Assembly (NCBI GenBank): GCA_017889545.1
Contig: JAGFZV010000018.1
Coordinates: 1 to 64,000 of the forward strand
Reading direction: 5' to 3'
Length of the DNA: 64,000 bases
From: Bacillota bacterium
GTDB taxonomy: Bacteria > Bacillota > Negativicutes > CTSoil-072
Shown here: positions 25,025 through 45,849 of the stretch, piece after piece
Position numbering within the stretch: position 1 is the stretch's first letter
Layout of the letters: each line of letters starts with the position of its first letter
Notes under the pieces: model-generated
Told to the model about the DNA's origin: nothing
The model's database searches: none
Seen by the model: only the letters and a program-made list of their open reading frames with translations
Position numbers and translations under genes: made by a program

Positions 25025-25912
25025 CTAAATTACGGCTTCCCAGGAACCTCCGGCCATGCGGATTGCTTCATCCAATGCGCGGCGAACAATCTCCGGACCC
25101 GCTTTTCGCTTGTATACAGCCGAAGCCCGTTTGCCTAGAGTCGCAGCCATCTCTTCAAAGGCCGCTGTGATACATTTATTGCGGTTGTCCGCATTTAAGG
25201 GACAGCTTAACATCATCTGCTCCGCACTGCGAACCCGAAACGGATTTTGAGCGACGGATCCTACGGAAATTCGGCAACTAGTAATCAGATTTTCGGCATG
25301 ATCATAGCCGATGATCGCAGCGGCACTGATTCTTGAAATCGCCAGTGCATTACGACGTCCCAATTTTACAAAAGCGCTGCCTGTTCCTTTTTCCAAAACA
25401 GGGAAACTAATCCCGGCAACTATTTCGTCTTTTTCCAATTTGTTTTTGCTGATGCCTAAGTAAAAATTTTCCAAAGGCATTTCCCGTTCACCGCGTTTAC
25501 TGATAATTTTCAACACCGCATCCAAGGCCATCAATGCAGGCAAACTGTCTCCCGCAGGTGATGCATTGGCAATATTCCCCCCTACGGTTCCCTGATTGCG
25601 AATTTGCGGTGATCCTACCGAAACAGCCGCCTGCGCCAATAGCCATGCATTTTCACGAATAATTGGCGATTCAACCAATTCAGTAAAGGTAGTCATTGGC
25701 CCAATAACTATGTTCGTCCCTTGTAAAGAGATCCCTTTCAAGTCTGATACCTTTTTTAACGCAATGACGCATTGAGGAGCAATTTTCCCCTCCCGCAGAT
25801 GAACGGTAACGTCCGTCCCTCCGGCTAAAATTTTGCTGTTTTCTTGATTTGCTGACAAAATATCCAGCAGTTCAGACATCGTTTCCGGTGCATAATATTC
25901 AAATGAGCTCAT
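25025..25912 (-). CDS. ndhF: Nicotinate dehydrogenase, FAD subunit
   Basis: A 295-residue subunit with the PCMH-type FAD fold: KILAGGTDVTVHLREGK (about residues 30-46) and NQGTVGGNIANASPAGDSLPALMALDAVL (about 108-136) hold the flavin, and the C-terminal CO-dehydrogenase flavoprotein domain has ISRISAAAIIG. It passes electrons from the [2Fe-2S] subunit to NADP+ when nicotinate is hydroxylated to 6-hydroxynicotinate. The size matches the 33-kDa subunit of E. barkeri. It is unusual in lying 5 kb downstream of ndhSLM, beyond niaP, hnr, the UPF0280 gene and a chemoreceptor. The cluster context gives the substrate assignment. Confidence 0.88.
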   Translation of the reverse strand: MSSFEYYAPETMSELLDILSANQENSKILAGGTDVTVHLREGKIAPQCVIALKKVSDLKGISLQGTNIVIGPMTTFTELVESPIIRENAWLLAQAAVSVGSPQIRNQGTVGGNIANASPAGDSLPALMALDAVLKIISKRGEREMPLENFYLGISKNKLEKDEIVAGISFPVLEKGTGSAFVKLGRRNALAISRISAAAIIGYDHAENLITSCRISVGSVAQNPFRVRSAEQMMLSCPLNADNRNKCITAAFEEMAATLGKRASAVYKRKAGPEIVRRALDEAIRMAGGSWEAVI

Positions 25913-25982: not shown

Positions 25983-26816
25983 TTACTTTAGATCGTCATC
26001 AGCGCACAGCGTCTCCGCAAGCATGTCAAGCTGCTGAGACATTCCGCTCACCTTTTGAACCACACCGGCCGCCTGCGACGTCGCTTCGGCAACCTGGCCA
26101 ATCACCTGATCAATATGGATCAATTGCTGGTAAGTATTATCGCTGTCCGTCCGCAAATCATGAAGTATCGCGCCAATTTGCTTTGTCGATTCTGTGCTGT
26201 CCACTGCCAGTTTTCGAATTTCACCGGCCACAACACCAAACCCGCGTCCTTGGTCACCAACTCGGGCAGCCTCAATCGCAGCATTTAATCCCAACAAATT
26301 CGTCTGACTGGCAATATTTTTAATGAAATCAAGAACCTGATCTGTTTGCGCAACCCGCGCCTGTGATTCTTGGGCCAGTTGCGCCAAATTCCGGCTGACT
26401 GCAGAAATTTCCTGTGTCTGTGCCGAAATTTCTTCGGTAGTGGCAGCCAATGTAGCAAGGTTATCGCTTAACTCACTTGCCATCTGTTTTAGGGCGTCTT
26501 GTTTATCCACCGGTTGGGTAATCGCAATCGAACCAATCACGTTTCCACTCTGTTCCTGGATTGGAATCGCCATTGCAATATATGGAATTCCGTAAAATTT
26601 CTTATCCACCTTGGCAACAATCCGCCGCTCTTCATGGATCGCACGGTAAATACCCGTTCCCTCTATTAATTCTGAACCAGCCGGGCATTTCAGATCCAGA
26701 TTCTTGGCCGGCATATACAAAAGGATCTTTTCCCGGTCTGTCAATGTCACGCCGACCTCTTTGTTGAATAAGAAGTGAAGCAATGGCAAGACATGCAAAT
26801 AATATTCATACTGCAT
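25983..26816 (-). CDS. Soluble methyl-accepting chemotaxis-type receptor
   Basis: A 277-residue protein with no transmembrane segment. Residues 1-105 are a sensor domain ([49 protein letters not shown]). The rest is a helical signalling domain with the conserved tip [41 protein letters not shown], which contacts CheW and CheA. AAAGGATGG precedes the ATG. It sits between the UPF0280 gene and ndhF inside the nicotinate island, so nicotinate or an intermediate is a natural ligand candidate; that is inference. A close relative starts beyond the right edge of the window (63563-64000). Confidence 0.85.
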
Positions 26817-26858: not shown

Positions 26859-27737
26859 TTATTTTGCAAACTTCCACCGAAAACCTTCTTCAATTTGGAC
26901 ATATTCTGTTGGAACAGCAAAATTTTCCGGCACAAGCACACCCAAGGTTCCGACAAATAATGCTGCTCCGATAATCTGTCCGCTGTTAAACCAGCCATTT
27001 GCTTTTTCCCAGCCGGCATACAACGCCTGCTTTAATATTTCCGGCGGCAACGGCCCCACTTCGGTAACTACTTGGTGTCCGGCAATATCCGTGTCCGGAT
27101 CAAGCTGTTCCGCAAACGTCACTTTAATGTTCTGGTGCGGGATATAGGTTGAATTAGCCAAACTGGTGGCGCAGGCGTCGGCCAATCCTGCGGTTGCAGC
27201 CGCTACAACCGCAGCAGATGCGATCCCTTTGGTAAAACTGCGGCCGCCAAGTCCGCTGGTTGCGATGCCGCCGATTCCATCGCCGGCCCGCAAACGGATA
27301 GTATGGGTATAAGCTGAACCAATAGCCGGCGCGATCCCTACCGTGGTCGTTTCGTCGTCCGAAAGACGAATTGCCAGATCTCCGCCATTATTGACAATGA
27401 CCTTCGTCGCACCGTTTGCTGCGATGAAATCTGCGGTTAAACCGGCGATTGACCCCGCAACTGCAGCCATGGGAGTCAGCGTATCATCCCCACTTTGTCT
27501 GACTGCCGTTATCATTGTCTGCAGGATCAGCGGGAGCGAATCCAAATTCTTCAGCTTGCATTGGGGTAAAACTGCAATTTGTTTATAGTCAGCCAGTTCA
27601 CGGAGTATTGCTATCGCCCGCTCTGCACCATTTCGAGCCACTTCCGTCAAGGGAGTTCCCTGACATTCAGCTTGAAGAGTCATTTGCATCGGACCATAAT
27701 CAAGTTTGATTAGTCCTGGGCGTAGTGTTGTAATCAT
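26859..27737 (-). CDS. UPF0280 family protein (ApbE-like fold), candidate flavinylation factor
   Basis: A 292-residue protein of the UPF0280 family. The core motifs include MAAVAGSIAGLTADFIAANGATKVIVNNGGDLAIRLSD (about residues 88-125), GIGGIATSGLGGRSFTKGIASAAVVAAATAGLADACATSLAN and a C-terminal LVPENFAVPTEYVQIEEGFRWKF. To my knowledge this family shares the fold of ApbE, the FMN transferase, and the GGDLAIRL and TSG elements look like ApbE's substrate site. Its ATG overlaps the hnr stop (ATGA), so it is translated with Hnr, an enzyme reported to contain covalently bound flavin. A role in attaching that flavin is proposed, not shown. Confidence 0.85.
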   Translation of the reverse strand: MITTLRPGLIKLDYGPMQMTLQAECQGTPLTEVARNGAERAIAILRELADYKQIAVLPQCKLKNLDSLPLILQTMITAVRQSGDDTLTPMAAVAGSIAGLTADFIAANGATKVIVNNGGDLAIRLSDDETTTVGIAPAIGSAYTHTIRLRAGDGIGGIATSGLGGRSFTKGIASAAVVAAATAGLADACATSLANSTYIPHQNIKVTFAEQLDPDTDIAGHQVVTEVGPLPPEILKQALYAGWEKANGWFNSGQIIGAALFVGTLGVLVPENFAVPTEYVQIEEGFRWKFAK

Positions 27738-29245
27738 TTTTTCAACTCCGCAAGCAAGTCTTTTAACGGACGAATGCTGTTAACATGACCACCAATTTCT
27801 TCGTATGCTTTACGGGTAATCGTGTATTCAACCGGTGCGACAGTAGCCGGTGTCGGAACCCACGTAAAGGCTTTGGGAACTACTTTTTCCACGTCCACCA
27901 TAAAATTGATGCCGCCACCCGGCAGAATGAAGGTCGGAGCGCCGCCGATCGTCAGCTTTGCATCGCCATTATGTACGGCCTGGGATAGTTTGCGCGGGTA
28001 TGTCGTGACGCCTGCCCTGGCGCTTCCGCCGGTCCCGCCTACGTAAATCGCCGATACCCGTGAATCCTCGCAATTACTGGCAATCAAATCAGCCAATCCC
28101 TGAACTTCACCGGTCATCGGAATTTCTTTTACTGTACCGTCACTTTGTACTTCCAGTAACCCGGCTTTTTCGCCAGTCGTTTCTGTTACCAAAATTTTCA
28201 TGCCCGTTTTGCCAATTTTCATATCAACACTTTTCACTGCATCGACAGCTCTCTCGATGTGGGTTCCGCCCCACCCTTTGCCGGATTCACCAAAATAGCG
28301 TCCGCGTGTACTTTTTCGCCCATTTACGACTACACCGCTGAATTGCATGCCTACTTCTTCGCCGGCACGGTGCTCGGACAAGAGGCCGATCACATGGTGA
28401 TCCAAAACAATCGCTTCGCCAACAACCGCACTCATCTGACGGGCGAACATCCCCACCGTAGCGCTGCCACAGCCTACCCGCATTTTCTTTTCCTGTACCC
28501 CGTCAATAGTTGGCGGGAACCCAACCTGAAGTTCTAATTTACTGCCTTTTTCAACTTGCAGAAGGACTCTTTCTTCATTCGCCAGTTCGACAATCGTACG
28601 GGCAGCCATAAAACCGGCCTTACCGCTGCTTAATGTGTTGGCTCCGCCGATCGAAAGCATTTTGGAACCATATTCTTCTGTATCCACCATCCCGACAACC
28701 AAGCCCTCACGCAAGACTTTCGCTCCTTCAGCGCCGATATGATGATTGCAGTCAATTTTAACTTTTACCCCACTGTAACTCAGCGGCGCCTCCGTAACGA
28801 CAGTAACGACTTCTACGCCATTCACCTTATCCGATACAATGTGCGGCGCCGGTTTGCAGCACGGATACTCTGTTCCGGATCCAACAGCTGTAATCAGCGG
28901 TTGATCAGGCAGTTGATGATTGACCTTATCGGCCCGGTTGTTTTCTGTTTCCAGCGGCCGATTCCTAATCAACGCACCTCCCGCATTGATGTATCGCCGG
29001 CACGCTCCGGAAAACCCCGGCTTGATCGAACACTGCACCGGGCAAGACCGGCACTCTATGGCTCCAGCAGCGCTCTCGTCATTGCGGGTGATGGCCGCAA
29101 AGGGACAAACCCGCAAACATGCACCGCAGCTTACACATTGCTCGCCAATATACGCTTTTTTCTCCACCATTTCAACGGCGTTTACAGGACACGTTTTTAT
29201 GCAAAGACCACAACCTTTGCATAATTCTTGGCTAATTACAATCAT
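27734..29245 (-). CDS. hnr: 6-hydroxynicotinate reductase
   Basis: A 503-residue iron-sulfur flavoenzyme that reduces 6-hydroxynicotinate to 1,4,5,6-tetrahydro-6-oxonicotinate with reduced ferredoxin. Two ferredoxin-type motifs, CKGCGLCIKTCP and CVSCGACLRVCP (residues 9-48), would hold two [4Fe-4S] clusters. Four more cysteines at about 65-81 (CRSCPVQC, then SGAC) could hold the [2Fe-2S] cluster reported for the E. barkeri enzyme. The long C-terminal part has glycine-rich stretches (GCGSATVGMF, YVGGTGGSARAGVTTYPRK, LPGGGINFMVD). No textbook DxxSGAT flavinylation motif was found. A GGAGGAG lies before the ATG. Confidence 0.88.
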   Translation of the reverse strand: MIVISQELCKGCGLCIKTCPVNAVEMVEKKAYIGEQCVSCGACLRVCPFAAITRNDESAAGAIECRSCPVQCSIKPGFSGACRRYINAGGALIRNRPLETENNRADKVNHQLPDQPLITAVGSGTEYPCCKPAPHIVSDKVNGVEVVTVVTEAPLSYSGVKVKIDCNHHIGAEGAKVLREGLVVGMVDTEEYGSKMLSIGGANTLSSGKAGFMAARTIVELANEERVLLQVEKGSKLELQVGFPPTIDGVQEKKMRVGCGSATVGMFARQMSAVVGEAIVLDHHVIGLLSEHRAGEEVGMQFSGVVVNGRKSTRGRYFGESGKGWGGTHIERAVDAVKSVDMKIGKTGMKILVTETTGEKAGLLEVQSDGTVKEIPMTGEVQGLADLIASNCEDSRVSAIYVGGTGGSARAGVTTYPRKLSQAVHNGDAKLTIGGAPTFILPGGGINFMVDVEKVVPKAFTWVPTPATVAPVEYTITRKAYEEIGGHVNSIRPLKDLLAELKK

Positions 29246-31013: not shown

Positions 31014-32000
31014 CTATTGTTCGTATTTCTCATCAAGCGCAGCCAATACCTTTTCCGGCGTAATCGGCAAAGAATATATCCGCACTCCGATCGCATCATA
31101 TACAGCATTCGCTATTGCCGCAGCCGTCGGTATCAGTGCCGGTTCGCCTACGCCCTTAGCGCCAAATGGTCCGGTAGGCTCCTGATCTTCTACAATAACC
31201 GATACGATTTCCGGCACATCCAGAGATGTAGCTAGCAAATACGTATCAAGGTTTGGATTTTTAATTTTCCCTTGGTTGATTTCAAGTTCTTCCAGCGTCG
31301 CATACCCCAGTCCCATAACTGTGCCGCCTTCAATTTGTCCAACCACCATATCCGGGTTGACCGCCCGGCCGACATCATGAGCGGCAACTACCTTGAGAAC
31401 TTCGATTTTTCCGGTAGCGGTATCCACCTCAACTTCTACGATCTGTGTAGCAAAAGCATATGTGCCGAATGGCGATCCATACCCGGTTTCAGGATCAAGT
31501 CCTGTCGTATCAGGATTAAACCAGCCATGACCTAACGTAAGCTTTCCCTTGGCACGGCAACACGCGATAAGATCTTTCAGCGCCAAATCCGACTTACAGC
31601 CACTCACATACACATATCCATCAGCAAAGCTCAACTGCTCCGCAGGTACAGAAAGTTTTTCGACCGCCTCTGCCAAAGCGACCTTTTTTGCCTCGGCAGC
31701 CGCTAAGCGGGCTGCATTTCCGGAAATATAGGTTTGCCGGCTGGCTGATGTCGCTCCGCCTTCGGGAGTAATCATCGTATCCGCGGAAGTGACTACGATT
31801 TGGTCAAAGGAAACACCCAACTCCTCAGCAACGATCTGAGCAAGTACAGTATCAGATCCTTGCCCGATATCAGCACACCCCACCATCAAGTTGACTGACC
31901 CGTCATCCAGCCATTCGACAAATGCACTGGCCGGATTTGGAAGCCCGGTGTTTCCGATCCCATACCACATACAACCGATCCCCACACCACGTTTCTTCAT
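31014..32000 (-). CDS. ndhM: Nicotinate dehydrogenase, medium molybdopterin subunit
   Basis: A 328-residue subunit that equals the C-terminal half of the usual single Mo chain of the xanthine dehydrogenase family. GCADIGQGSDTVLAQIVAEELG is at about residues 40-61 and GGATSASRQTYISGNAARLAA binds the dinucleotide cofactor. The active-site Glu is expected in GAKGVGEPALIPTAAAIANAVYDA near the C-terminus. The start chosen is the ATG at 32000, which shares its A with the ndhL stop (TAATG) and follows GGAGG by seven bases. Such a split of the Mo protein is the published hallmark of E. barkeri nicotinate dehydrogenase, where a selenium atom is also present at the active site. Confidence 0.9.
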   Translation of the reverse strand: MKKRGVGIGCMWYGIGNTGLPNPASAFVEWLDDGSVNLMVGCADIGQGSDTVLAQIVAEELGVSFDQIVVTSADTMITPEGGATSASRQTYISGNAARLAAAEAKKVALAEAVEKLSVPAEQLSFADGYVYVSGCKSDLALKDLIACCRAKGKLTLGHGWFNPDTTGLDPETGYGSPFGTYAFATQIVEVEVDTATGKIEVLKVVAAHDVGRAVNPDMVVGQIEGGTVMGLGYATLEELEINQGKIKNPNLDTYLLATSLDVPEIVSVIVEDQEPTGPFGAKGVGEPALIPTAAAIANAVYDAIGVRIYSLPITPEKVLAALDEKYEQ

Positions 32001-33346
32001 TATTCCACCTCCCATTTCGGGAAATTAGGTCCCTGTTTCTGCGCTGTTTGTGCAGCTTGCAATAATGTCTCTTTGATTCCCACGCTGTGCTTAAGAACTT
32101 GCCCGGTAGCAGTAATGCCGCCTGGAACCAATACGTTTTTTAAGCGAACTGCCAATGGCGATAATCCTAATTTTTCTGCTAACAAATCCAACTGGGATTC
32201 ATGGGCAAACGCCACTTGCGGCACCCCAAACCCGCGCATTGCACCGGCCATTGGATTATTCGTATAGACTGCATAGGCATCAATCCAAACGTTTGGCACC
32301 TCATAAGGGCCGGTAGCATGGACAGCAGCTCTCGTTATTACTCCCGGTCCATAGGAAGCATACGCCCCGGTATCGGCAATAATCGTCGCTTTTAATGCAG
32401 TCCACTTGCCATCCTTTGTCGCTGCCGTTTTGTAATCAATGATATATGGATGGCGCTTAGCAGAAGCAACCATCGATTCTTCACGGGAATAAACTAATTT
32501 TACCGGGCGCCGGGTATGATAGGCCAGTAAAGCAAGGTGGCATTGTACTGAAATATCCAATTTTCCGCCAAATCCGCCGCCGGTAACCGCTTGGATAATA
32601 CGCACTTTGTTAACATCCATATTCATCGTACGGGCTACTTCTTTACGGTCAAAGTGTACATTTTGGGTTGATACCCACAAGGTCAGCATGGAACCGTCAT
32701 ATTCGGCAACCCCGGCCTCCGGTTCAATGTAAGCGTGTTCTACCGACTGTGTCCGGTATCTATTTTCCAGGATTACATCGGCATTGGCGAAAGCGGCCTC
32801 AACATCTCCTTTGCGAATTTTTCGCACTGTCAAGATATTGTTAGGATGAACCTGCGGCGCATCCGGCTTCATCGCCTCAATCGGATCAAATACCGCCGGC
32901 AGTTCTTGGAAGGAAACTTTAATCAGTTTTATCGCCGCCTCAGCCGCCTGCTCCGTTTCCGCCGCAACCAGGGCAATGGCATCGCCAATCCGTCTGATTT
33001 TGTCATGAACCAACACCGGCTCATCTTTTAATATAATCCCCACTCCGCAGGGTCTAACCGCCGGGAAGCAAGCGTCCCTGTCAGAACAAATCTCGCCTTT
33101 TACTAAAGTGCCATCCCCGCTGGGCCCGGGAATATCCGCCGCCGTCAAGACTTTTACCACGCCGGGGTACGCTGCCGCTTCTGAAATATCCAGCGCTTTT
33201 AAAATGGCATGCGGAACCGTGCTTCTCAGAACCTTTGCATGCAGCATGCCCGGCCGCACGATATCAGCAGCAAACAAAGCCTGCCCCGTAACCTTTTTCA
33301 CAGCGTCTTTACGGGCTACCGATGCGCCCATGCCTGTATTACTCAT
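32000..33346 (-). CDS. ndhL: Nicotinate dehydrogenase, large molybdopterin subunit
   Basis: A 448-residue subunit equal to the N-terminal half of an ordinary Mo hydroxylase large chain. After the first domain (KKVTGQALFAADIVRPGMLHAKVLRSTVPHA), it has YIEPEAGVAEYDGSMLTLWVSTQNVH, the Mo-site motif VTGGGFGGKLDISVQCHLALLA and AMRGFGVPQVAFAHESQLDLLAEKLGLSPL. Together with NdhM it adds up to about 776 residues, the full size of the family. It hydroxylates C6 of nicotinate using water. It overlaps the end of ndhS by eight bases and ndhM by one. Confidence 0.9.
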   Translation of the reverse strand: MSNTGMGASVARKDAVKKVTGQALFAADIVRPGMLHAKVLRSTVPHAILKALDISEAAAYPGVVKVLTAADIPGPSGDGTLVKGEICSDRDACFPAVRPCGVGIILKDEPVLVHDKIRRIGDAIALVAAETEQAAEAAIKLIKVSFQELPAVFDPIEAMKPDAPQVHPNNILTVRKIRKGDVEAAFANADVILENRYRTQSVEHAYIEPEAGVAEYDGSMLTLWVSTQNVHFDRKEVARTMNMDVNKVRIIQAVTGGGFGGKLDISVQCHLALLAYHTRRPVKLVYSREESMVASAKRHPYIIDYKTAATKDGKWTALKATIIADTGAYASYGPGVITRAAVHATGPYEVPNVWIDAYAVYTNNPMAGAMRGFGVPQVAFAHESQLDLLAEKLGLSPLAVRLKNVLVPGGITATGQVLKHSVGIKETLLQAAQTAQKQGPNFPKWEVE

Positions 33347-33827
33347 TCTTTTCCCCCCCGCAATCGGCTTCGCTGACTGCAGTTACAGCAGCGACAATTT
33401 TGTGATAACCGGTACAGCGGCATAAATTACCTGACAACGCTGTCTTTATTTCTTGTTCCGTTGGCTTGGGATTGCTGTCCAATAAAGCTTTCGCGGATAA
33501 AATCATCCCTGGAGTGCAAAAACCGCATTGTACCGCGCCATGATCGATAAAAGATTGCTGCAATCGATGCAGTTGTTCGCCTTTATTTACCCCTTCGATC
33601 GTTGTAATGGAAGAACCGTCGATGGTAGCCGCCAAAACCATGCAGGAGTTAACTGCTCTGCCGTCAATGATCACAGTGCAAGCGCCGCATTCACCGACGC
33701 CGCAACCCTTCTTTGTTCCTGTCATCGCCAAATCTTCCCGCAAAAAATCCACTAATAATTTGTCAGTCTCAACCTCAGCTGTTGCCGCAATTTCATTTAT
33801 AAAGAATTTGATCGTTTGTTTAGCCAT
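33339..33827 (-). CDS. ndhS: Nicotinate dehydrogenase, small [2Fe-2S] subunit
   Basis: A 162-residue electron-transfer subunit with two [2Fe-2S] clusters. The plant-ferredoxin-like site is GCGVGECGACTVIIDGRAVNSC (about residues 40-61), and the C-terminal four-helix site is VQCGFCTPGM plus NLCRCTGYHKI. It is the first gene of ndhSLM. The start is the ATG at 33827, which follows GGAGGTG by five bases. An upstream ATG at 33857 would lie inside the sigma-54 promoter and is rejected for that reason. Confidence 0.92.
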   Translation of the reverse strand: MAKQTIKFFINEIAATAEVETDKLLVDFLREDLAMTGTKKGCGVGECGACTVIIDGRAVNSCMVLAATIDGSSITTIEGVNKGEQLHRLQQSFIDHGAVQCGFCTPGMILSAKALLDSNPKPTEQEIKTALSGNLCRCTGYHKIVAAVTAVSEADCGGEKNE

Positions 33828-33850
33828 CTCTACACCTCCATATAATAAAT

Positions 33851-33870
33851 TATGCAAATTTTATGCCAAT
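33851..33870 (-). promoter_or_regulatory. Sigma-54 promoter of the ndhSLM half of the island
   Basis: The minus strand reads ATTGGCATAAAATTTGCATA. The invariant GG and GC are separated by exactly ten bases, as in the sigma-54 consensus TGGCAC-N5-TTGC. Transcription would start about 15 bases before the ndhS start codon. It matches the site at 47323-47342 at 18 of 20 bases. Confidence 0.8.
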
Positions 33871-43896: not shown

Positions 43897-44478
43897 CTAA
43901 CGAAGACCGTCTTCGCCTTTTATTTCCTCTTTTTTCAGTCCGCCAATGCGCGGCAACGGCCGTCCTCCGTTGGTTACAACAACAACCAATGCCAGTTCAT
44001 TGGCACGCGGTCCGTCAGAAACCCGAACTTCCATCGCATCAAAATGACTGCGGACAAAGGCTGCATCTTTAAAACCTAGTGGTACATCAAGAGCGGTACC
44101 AACTCCACCGCGTTTTTTGGCTGAAGGAATAAGCGCTTTACCACCACCCACACAGCGGCGCATCGGGGTTCCGAGTTTAGGGTGCATCAATGCTGCAGCA
44201 TGTTCCAATTCACCATTTTCTCCAACAATGACGCCTTTACCATAACTTTCTACTTCATCCAAGGAAGACACTCCCAGAACTTCCACCGCTTTTGTGGTCA
44301 GCATTTCGCCCAGTTCCAAACTTGCTTCTATCAGCGGGGTCAGATCTTCGACATATTTTCCGGCATACGGATTTTCAAATACGGCAATTGCAGCCGCTTT
44401 GCGAAGCGGTTTCTCCAGTTTCTGACCAGCCTCCATATGAAATTCTTCCACCATCGTTACAATTTTACGAATTTCCAT
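43897..44478 (-). CDS. Amino acid synthesis/DUF1185 family protein
   Basis: A 193-residue protein of the DUF1185 (amino acid synthesis, PF06684-type) family. Markers are IVTMVEEFHMEAGQ, AAIAVFENPYAGKYVEDLTPLIEASLELGE, SYGKGVIVGENGELEHAAALMHPKLGTPMRRCVGGGKALIPSAKKRGGVGTALDVPLGFKDAAFVRSHFDAMEVRVSDGPRANELALVVVVTNGGRPLPRIGG. No reaction is established for the family; it often lies beside amidohydrolases in ring-degradation clusters. Here it sits between enamidase and Hgd, just where the unstable enamine or aldehyde intermediates arise, so a role in that step is possible. It is cytoplasmic and has no cofactor motif. Confidence 0.8.
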   Translation of the reverse strand: MEIRKIVTMVEEFHMEAGQKLEKPLRKAAAIAVFENPYAGKYVEDLTPLIEASLELGEMLTTKAVEVLGVSSLDEVESYGKGVIVGENGELEHAAALMHPKLGTPMRRCVGGGKALIPSAKKRGGVGTALDVPLGFKDAAFVRSHFDAMEVRVSDGPRANELALVVVVTNGGRPLPRIGGLKKEEIKGEDGLR

Positions 44479-44539: not shown

Positions 44540-45712
44540 TTAGCGAACCGTTACACTGCGCTCGGCAGGCGGCGTATTCCGGCTCTTATTCACCAGGATT
44601 TTTCCGTCAATCAGTACCATCGCTACGCCTGGAAGATCTCCTGCCTCCAACGCTTCCAATGCATTGCTGCCGATCGATCCCATTGGCTTATCAGCGATAA
44701 CTAGGTCAGCCTCTTTCCCAACGGCTATCACACCGGTATTCAGTCCATATACCTTGGCCGTATTTCCGGTCGCCATAGCAATGGCCTCTGCTGCAGATAC
44801 GCCGGACATACCGGCAACTTGAGCAATATTACGCAAAATGCCCAGCGGGATTAGCCCCGTACCGGATGGAGCGTCATTCCCAAAAATAATCCGGCCGAGT
44901 TCGCCTTTTTTTGCTAGTTTTCGGACTACCATGTCGCCGATTTTAATATTGCCGCACTGGACAATTTCCAGCGCTAATTTTGTTTCCTCAATCAGACGAT
45001 CCACTTCAGCAGGCGATATGGCGGTTGGCCCGCCATTCACATGTGAGACTACGTCCGGATCAACTGCAATCACATCGGCTGCGGTAACTGTAGAACTGCC
45101 CGGTATGGATGTTCCGCCGGTATGCATCATGACTTTCATACCGTTATTCTTCGCCCATTGCACCATCGGCGCCGCGTCCTCCGGTTTTTTGATCGAACCC
45201 AAACCAACTTCCCCAACCAGCCAAACTCCGGCTGCCGCCAATTCGGCAAAATCAGCTTCAACCAATCCTTTTTCCAATATGAGGGCGCCGCCATGAAGTT
45301 TGACACCGGCCGGTCTTTCATTCGCAGACGACTTATGAGCTACTATCGCCAACGCTTTTGTACCAACAGGATCTTTCGGGCGTCCGGGCGTATGACATTC
45401 ACCGGCAGAAATCATCGTGGTAACGCCGCCATGGAGGGCGCTGCTAATGAAATCCAACGTTTTTTGCCGCGGCGTAAAGTCGCCAAGCACCGGATGGACG
45501 TGAGAATCGATTAGGCCCGGCATTACTGTCATTCCGCCAGCATCAATGACTTGTACTCCGGGCGTTTCTTTTTGAGCTTGTTCAGCCAAACTGCCATCAC
45601 CAATGGCGGCAATTTTTCCATCCCTAATAATAATTGTGTTGTCTTTCAGTACAGTGTTTTTGATATCTCCGGAAACTAACACGCCAATATTTGTTACTAC
45701 TGTAACTGCCAT
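44540..45712 (-). CDS. ena: Enamidase (1,4,5,6-tetrahydro-6-oxonicotinate hydrolase)
   Basis: A 390-residue binuclear-metal amidohydrolase. It opens 1,4,5,6-tetrahydro-6-oxonicotinate and releases ammonia to give (S)-2-formylglutarate. Metal ligands are visible in PGLIDSHVHPVLGDF, a bridging-residue region is around RPAGVKLHGGALILEKGLVEADFAEL, then come KVMMHTGGTS, DVVSHVNGG and the late Asp of IIFGNDAPSGTGLIPLGILRNIAQVAG. The C-terminal beta sandwich ends VLIDGKILVNKSR. The length is within a few residues of the E. barkeri enzyme. The ATG at 45712 has AAGGAG eight bases upstream. Confidence 0.9.
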   Translation of the reverse strand: MAVTVVTNIGVLVSGDIKNTVLKDNTIIIRDGKIAAIGDGSLAEQAQKETPGVQVIDAGGMTVMPGLIDSHVHPVLGDFTPRQKTLDFISSALHGGVTTMISAGECHTPGRPKDPVGTKALAIVAHKSSANERPAGVKLHGGALILEKGLVEADFAELAAAGVWLVGEVGLGSIKKPEDAAPMVQWAKNNGMKVMMHTGGTSIPGSSTVTAADVIAVDPDVVSHVNGGPTAISPAEVDRLIEETKLALEIVQCGNIKIGDMVVRKLAKKGELGRIIFGNDAPSGTGLIPLGILRNIAQVAGMSGVSAAEAIAMATGNTAKVYGLNTGVIAVGKEADLVIADKPMGSIGSNALEALEAGDLPGVAMVLIDGKILVNKSRNTPPAERSVTVR

Positions 45713-45849
45713 ACAAATCACTCCTTATATATTTATTTGGAACCTGTAATACTCCGACTTACAACGTCGTGATGACAGACTATAAAACTAGCACTTCATT
45801 CTTTACCGTTCAGGGTATTGTTCATTTTTGAAAACAACTGTGTTTTGCC

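Follow-up and report, generated by a model that had tools for sequence, protein, structure and literature searches.

A gene for a UPF0280 (COG2122) protein lies beside or near hnr, the gene for 6-hydroxynicotinate reductase, in 74 of 80 named hnr loci, that of E. barkeri included, and we regard it as highly likely that the protein is a dedicated partner of Hnr. Because nearly every readable hnr locus carries the gene and the protein is related to ApbE, UPF0280 is very probably a dedicated maturation factor of Hnr, most likely one that moves FMN or FAD. That it attaches the flavin covalently to Hnr, as a first-pass annotation of the DNA had proposed, is nearly, if not quite, an even proposition.

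Linkage of hnr and the UPF0280 gene

In the window (the whole stretch of 64,000 nucleotides that was analysed), the open reading frames of hnr and UPF0280 have 4 nucleotides in common, with the TGA of hnr lying inside an ATGA (minus strand, ...TTGAAAAAATGATTACAACA...); the overlap described in the first-pass annotation is exact in the sequence. Both genes belong to a complete nicotinate fermentation cluster of the E. barkeri type, which also encodes Mo-hydroxylase subunits, enamidase, a hydroxymethylglutarate dehydrogenase-like protein, an SDH-like dehydratase, a B12 mutase, a PrpF-like isomerase, an aconitase-like pair and a PEP-mutase/ICL-like lyase (Table 1). The window thus contains the full set of nicotinate pathway genes together with an ortholog of the E. 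barkeri protein, the window Hnr being 57% identical over residues 1-496 to that of E. barkeri VPI 5359 (locus L085). The gene set is the same as in the E. barkeri cluster, where UPF0280 is also found at hnr, but the gene order differs. An MCP-like signalling protein is encoded within the nicotinate cluster as well, and a role in nicotinate chemotaxis or sensing is possible.

Table 1. Features at the hnr locus of the window and PF06684 genes in other clusters
Feature	Position	Strand	Remarks
hnr, 6-hydroxynicotinate reductase	27734..29245	-	503 aa; exact ORF
UPF0280/COG2122 gene, Hnr-type long form	26859..27737	-	292 aa; exact ORF
ATGA overlap, last bases of hnr and UPF0280 start	27734..27737	-	sequence
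UPF0280 active-site region, codons ~160-200	27138..27260	-	invariant or near-invariant residues in 47 Hnr-type sequences; hhalign mapping to ApbE; residue roles from PMC12052999
UPF0280 NNGGDL motif, residues 116-121 (equivalent of ApbE NxGGDI)	27375..27392	-	
PF06684 'AA_synth' gene	43897..44478	-	second conserved uncharacterised gene of nicotinate clusters
Enamidase (amidohydrolase)	44540..45721	-	next pathway step
Nicotinate dehydrogenase-type molybdenum subunits	31014-32015 and 32000-33346	-	split
2[2Fe-2S] subunit of nicotinate dehydrogenase type	33339-33857	-	
FAD subunit of nicotinate dehydrogenase type	25025-25912		
MCP-like signalling protein	25983-26816		277 aa; just past UPF0280
PF06684 in other clusters	L083:12402-12980; L085:19362-19943; L192, L198		

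The UPF0280 gene was directly downstream of hnr and on the same strand in 66 of the 80 loci; another 8 had it at some other place within the locus, and 6 showed no such gene in view. At E. barkeri VPI 5359 it overlaps or abuts hnr. Among the 66 adjacent loci, the UPF0280 start fell within -20 to +40 nt of the hnr stop at 54, and a 4-nt overlap of the ATGA type was possible at only 12, showing that close linkage is general and the exact ATGA is not. Five of the six contigs on which the gene was not in view stop at most 700 bases from hnr, and in the sixth (L023) the contig start is 77 bases upstream of hnr. Four of these six genomes carry the long form of UPF0280 (defined below) on another contig, where in two of them it starts no more than 320 bases from the contig end; of the remaining two genomes, one shows the short form only and the other, a Geobacteraceae MAG, shows none.

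A tblastn search of plasmids gave 26 full-length hnr places in Proteobacteria, and UPF0280 was near hnr at all 26 (detected by BLAST at 20, and by annotation or HMM at the other six). The first-pass annotation had proposed such a survey of hnr neighbours, and had named hnr loci consistently lacking UPF0280 as the outcome that would speak against its idea; the survey was strongly positive for named and plasmid loci alike, and a consistent lack was looked for and not found. A single plasmid, that of Hydrogenophaga BPS33 (L190), had UPF0280 but lacked hnr; there the gene is a trimmed remnant beside IS1071. This plasmid has four UPF0280 places, two of which were read and found to encode an identical protein in IS1071-bounded repeated segments; the repeats represent a trimmed catabolic fragment carried as such. 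Pairwise distances of UPF0280 and Hnr were correlated with a Mantel r of 0.71, computed without species-tree control, and the best of 2000 shuffles reached 0.15. The hnr-UPF0280 pair is conserved and probably functional. A similar arrangement is seen in the NqrC/ApbE and fumarate reductase/ApbE pairs, in which client and flavin transferase are encoded close together, and gene adjacency is how the job of ApbE was found (PMC12052999); in those pairs, in contrast to Hnr and UPF0280, the target motif and the FMN-Thr bond are known.

The active site of UPF0280 and its candidate target in Hnr

The UPF0280 protein matched the NCBIfam model PRK04334/UPF0280 (NF003322) with 207 bits (E 3e-61), which does not reach the equivalog cut-off of 290, and matched PDB 2o34 (DVU1097) by sequence with an E value of 6e-9. 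Foldseek of its AlphaFold model (pLDDT 94.6) placed 2o34 at the top (E 6e-10, prob 1.0), followed by chains of FmnB and ApbE (E values from 1e-4 to 1e-2, prob about 1), and hhalign matched the protein to a clostridial ApbE with a probability of 96% (E 1.7e-9). The ApbE-like fold ascribed to UPF0280 in the first pass is therefore borne out by both methods, although the score against Pfam ApbE (PF02424) was 19.7 bits, under the gathering cut-off of 25.6.

The catalytic triad of V. cholerae ApbE is Ser241-His257-Asp285, and FmnB adds Arg262 (PMC12052999). In the hhalign alignment, T160-S161-G162 of UPF0280 is the equivalent of Ser241 and A186-D187 that of Asp285. S161 (in TSG), D187 and T191 (in ADxxxT), N117 and D120 (in NGGD) and R166 are invariant in 47 Hnr-type sequences, in which S167 and T169 are invariant or nearly so; R166 stands at Ser+5, as does Arg262 of FmnB. 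The invariant residues include probable Mg-site residues. UPF0280 thus shares with ApbE, FmnB and Ftp the fold, the catalytic Ser and Asp, and the NGGD-like and ADxxxT motifs. In contrast, the HxxDPxTG block with the general-base His257 is missing, as hhalign puts the whole block in a gap, and the KGY motif is deleted or changed; only Ser161 and Asp187 of the triad are kept, and the standard ApbE reaction is therefore not assured. The histidine of a GHS sequence in the short form was considered as the counterpart of His257 and dropped, because hhalign aligns nothing with that block.

Hnr consists of an N-terminal 2[4Fe-4S] domain, a third four-Cys motif and a C-terminal core (residues ~112-503). 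Twelve Cys (C9, C12, C15, C19, C37, C40, C43, C47, C65, C68, C72 and C82) are invariant in 47 homologues and make up the 2[4Fe-4S] ferredoxin sets and the third set, CxxCxxxC...C, in which C65, C68, C72 and C82 are probably Fe-S ligands. The 2006 E. barkeri study (Alhapel) reportedly found two [4Fe-4S] clusters and one [2Fe-2S] cluster in Hnr, and a flavin bound to it covalently, for which no route of attachment is known to have been described. Residues 65-82 (window 29000-29053), which read CxxCPVxC...GxxGACxRYxN, resemble a Cys motif at the N terminus of PflA-like/AmmeMemo radical SAM proteins, and a shared Fe-S ribbon is possible.

Hnr of the Proteobacteria (L191-L198) has no N-terminal 2[4Fe-4S] domain, yet the CxxCPVxC..GAC motif, the core and UPF0280 are all kept, which argues that the client of UPF0280 is the Hnr core. 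A ferredoxin-NADP reductase gene just upstream in L192 and L198 suggests a different electron supply in these aerobic Proteobacteria. When the AlphaFold model of Hnr (pLDDT 92.4) was searched with Foldseek, only the ferredoxin part gave matches and the core (window 27737-28912) had no PDB fold match; a PDB sequence search with Hnr also returned nothing. The core is thus confidently modelled in a fold without a PDB counterpart, within a reported flavoprotein that has no recognisable flavin domain. It was also compared with DUF39/HcyBio as a possible distant homologue: hhalign aligned a V[DE]VVT..SG stretch alone (21-24 columns, P about 0.05 to 0.1), its global alignment carried no meaning, and we claim no homology. 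A sequence search of the PDB with DUF39 found no match.

The first-pass annotation had conceded that Hnr has no DxxSGAT target, and this held throughout: neither the ApbE target DxxSGA[T/S] nor [ST]GA[ST] was present in any of 87 Hnr sequences. The T/SGAC at residues 79-82 is a look-alike only, C82 being a probable Fe-S ligand. Given that the general-base His is missing from UPF0280 and the target from Hnr, the acceptor or the chemistry must differ from that of ApbE. Ser, Thr, Tyr, His and Cys residues of the core that are invariant in the 87 sequences are T148, T151, S156, Y157, T328, T356, T357, S408, T475, C259, C392 and H284, and these would be the candidate acceptors; C259 and C392 lie outside the Fe-S motifs. 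In the reading that we favour, UPF0280 would act in the cytosol as the dedicated maturation factor of the Hnr core. Its NGGD, TSG and ADxxxT motifs would bind FAD and Mg2+, and it would transfer a flavin moiety (FMN as in ApbE, or a related attachment) to a core residue, enabling Hnr to hand the electrons of its Fe-S centres on to 6-hydroxynicotinate. Evidence against flavin transfer comes from the altered His257 and KGY regions, the lack of a target motif in Hnr and the low PF02424 score, and further from a short sister form that serves DUF39, for which a literature search found no report of flavin, and from a canonical ApbE in the window's own genome.

Alternatively, UPF0280 could be a stable FAD- or nucleotide-binding subunit, a chaperone that loads flavin non-covalently, or an FAD pyrophosphatase, with any covalent flavin being self-formed. 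We consider this possible but rather unlikely. Hnr of E. barkeri was reportedly purified as one kind of subunit, and the invariance of S161, D187, T191 and R166 points to catalysis more than to a role in structure alone. Nevertheless, one UPF0280 per client fits this alternative equally well, as does the missing general base. Treponema Ftp is an example of an ApbE fold able to hydrolyse FAD (PMC4767422). Furthermore, 8-alpha-linked flavins usually attach by self-catalysis (PMC12052999), a route that needs no factor and so counts against UPF0280 as a transferase.

Two branches of UPF0280 and their partners

We examined co-occurrence in a sample of 300 genomes of the same phylum, taking as the long form of UPF0280 any match that extends to about position 284 of the profile with at least 261 bits. 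The long form was present in exactly the 11 genomes that have hnr (11/11 versus 0/289; Fisher P about 3e-20, with related genomes not being independent), one of which carries two hnr genes and two long forms. Of the 300 genomes, 103 had the short form, 98 of these together with DUF39, and all 98 DUF39 genomes had UPF0280. The five genomes with UPF0280 but neither DUF39 nor hnr had mostly partial or weak matches or were less complete. The gene order DUF39-NIL/ferredoxin-UPF0280 was confirmed in loci L097 and L101. This split by partner, hnr on one side and DUF39 on the other, indicates two client systems for the family.

COG2122 proteins of the DUF39 pathway (DVU1097, that is PDB 2o34; DvMF_0044; MA1715) have the fold and the NGGD, TSG and ADxxxT motifs of the family and are likewise coupled to a ferredoxin-linked enzyme. 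They differ from the Hnr type in their length (about 245 aa, the C-terminal extension being absent), in having Cys-Thr-Ser-Ser and Gly-His/Pro-Ser in place of T-S-G-x-x-G-R-S, and in their partner, which is DUF39 with NIL/ferredoxin instead of Hnr. The first-pass annotation had treated UPF0280 as an uncharacterised family in want of a job, and this has to be corrected. A literature search under the name UPF0280 gave nothing, but the name COG2122 led to a genetic requirement, together with DUF39 and NIL/ferredoxin, for homocysteine synthesis (PMC5764234); the same search found no biochemistry of COG2122. Desulfovibrio COG2122 mutants need methionine, with fitness profiles that match those of DUF39 at r = 0.98, and M. 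acetivorans mutants need more sulfide, or cysteine or homocysteine (PMC5764234). DUF39 (PF01837) was found neither in the window's own genome nor in that of E. barkeri, arguing that UPF0280 is not there for homocysteine.

These mutant phenotypes raise the possibility that UPF0280 is a sulfur-trafficking or persulfide factor that modifies C259 or C392 of Hnr, the two invariant core Cys, or aids its Fe-S clusters. MA1715, which acts with DUF39, is called a sulfur-trafficking protein in PMC12068725, and in the short form a Cys just before TSS is invariant. However, none of the columns in the 47 Hnr-type sequences holds a conserved Cys (the best reaches 43%, and the position of the short-form Cys 26%), which speaks against UPF0280 as a carrier of sulfur in the Hnr branch. 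No sulfur is added in the Hnr chemistry, and the aerobic Proteobacteria keep UPF0280 though their Hnr has lost the 2[4Fe-4S] domain. We therefore regard a sulfur role at hnr as improbable; the conserved residues of the Hnr type would fit a retained nucleotide/flavin-Mg chemistry, not that of a textbook ApbE, better than a sulfur relay.

If UPF0280 is the maturation factor of Hnr, the short form beside DUF39-NIL/ferredoxin would be its sister, serving a different reductive enzyme that is likewise fed by ferredoxin. A broader and more speculative proposal, which we hold to be unlikely as it stands, is that UPF0280/COG2122 forms a second branch of the ApbE flavin-transferase superfamily, one that is cytosolic, has an altered catalysis and recognises targets of a new kind. 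This branch would be dedicated to reductive enzymes fed by ferredoxin, with Hnr flavinylated by the long form and the DUF39 enzyme (aspartate-semialdehyde sulfurtransferase) by the short form. Were it true, the superfamily would have a second kind of flavin attachment, and the DUF39 homocysteine enzyme would be an unrecognised covalent flavoprotein, a testable prediction. COG2122 is widespread in anaerobes and methanogens, and Hnr, as a single-enzyme client, offers a tractable test system for its reaction.

Hnr or the nicotinate pathway as the partner of UPF0280

The UPF0280 protein might instead be a pathway enzyme, or act on the enamidase, the PF06684 protein or the Mo-hydroxylase, and ride with hnr only as a member of the operon. 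All hnr and UPF0280 loci that were inspected are catabolic clusters, and UPF0280 is sometimes closer to the Mo subunits or PF06684 than to hnr (L027, L076, L086). Direct adjacency of hnr and UPF0280 is, however, the commonest arrangement by far, and the DUF39/NIL-ferredoxin partner set contains none of the proteins in question. Moreover, PF06684 is missing from Lutispora and from a Dethiobacter MAG, both of which retain UPF0280 and a paralogue of hnr in clusters that also encode methylaspartate ammonia-lyase and have an Oxidored_FMN-type gene (the Pfam assignments come from the corresponding genes in L076); UPF0280 therefore tracks Hnr and not the nicotinate pathway, and we judge a pathway role to be quite improbable. 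It is very improbable that Hnr is flavinylated by a canonical ApbE encoded at another place in the genome, with UPF0280 being incidental: the window's genome does have one such gene (G000:C7), but the target motif is missing from Hnr, and no match was found in three genomes with hnr and UPF0280, namely Acididesulfobacillus acetoxydans, whose hnr lies on a single chromosome record, a Syntrophaceae MAG and a Spirochaeta MAG (the two MAGs may be incomplete), so that genomes with hnr do not in general need a canonical ApbE.

Hnr paralogues (about 50% identity) accompanied by UPF0280 were seen in L076, L079, L086 and L053, together with methylaspartate ammonia-lyase, an old-yellow-enzyme/FlpD fusion and Mo-hydroxylases; another N-heterocycle is probably reduced in these clusters. 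PF06684 was considered as the real partner of UPF0280 and was ruled out by the two genomes that lack it. In Bacillota, Desulfobacterota and Proteobacteria it recurs in the hnr/nicotinate clusters, often in the order hnr-UPF0280-PF06684, and blocks of this order are present in Proteobacteria.
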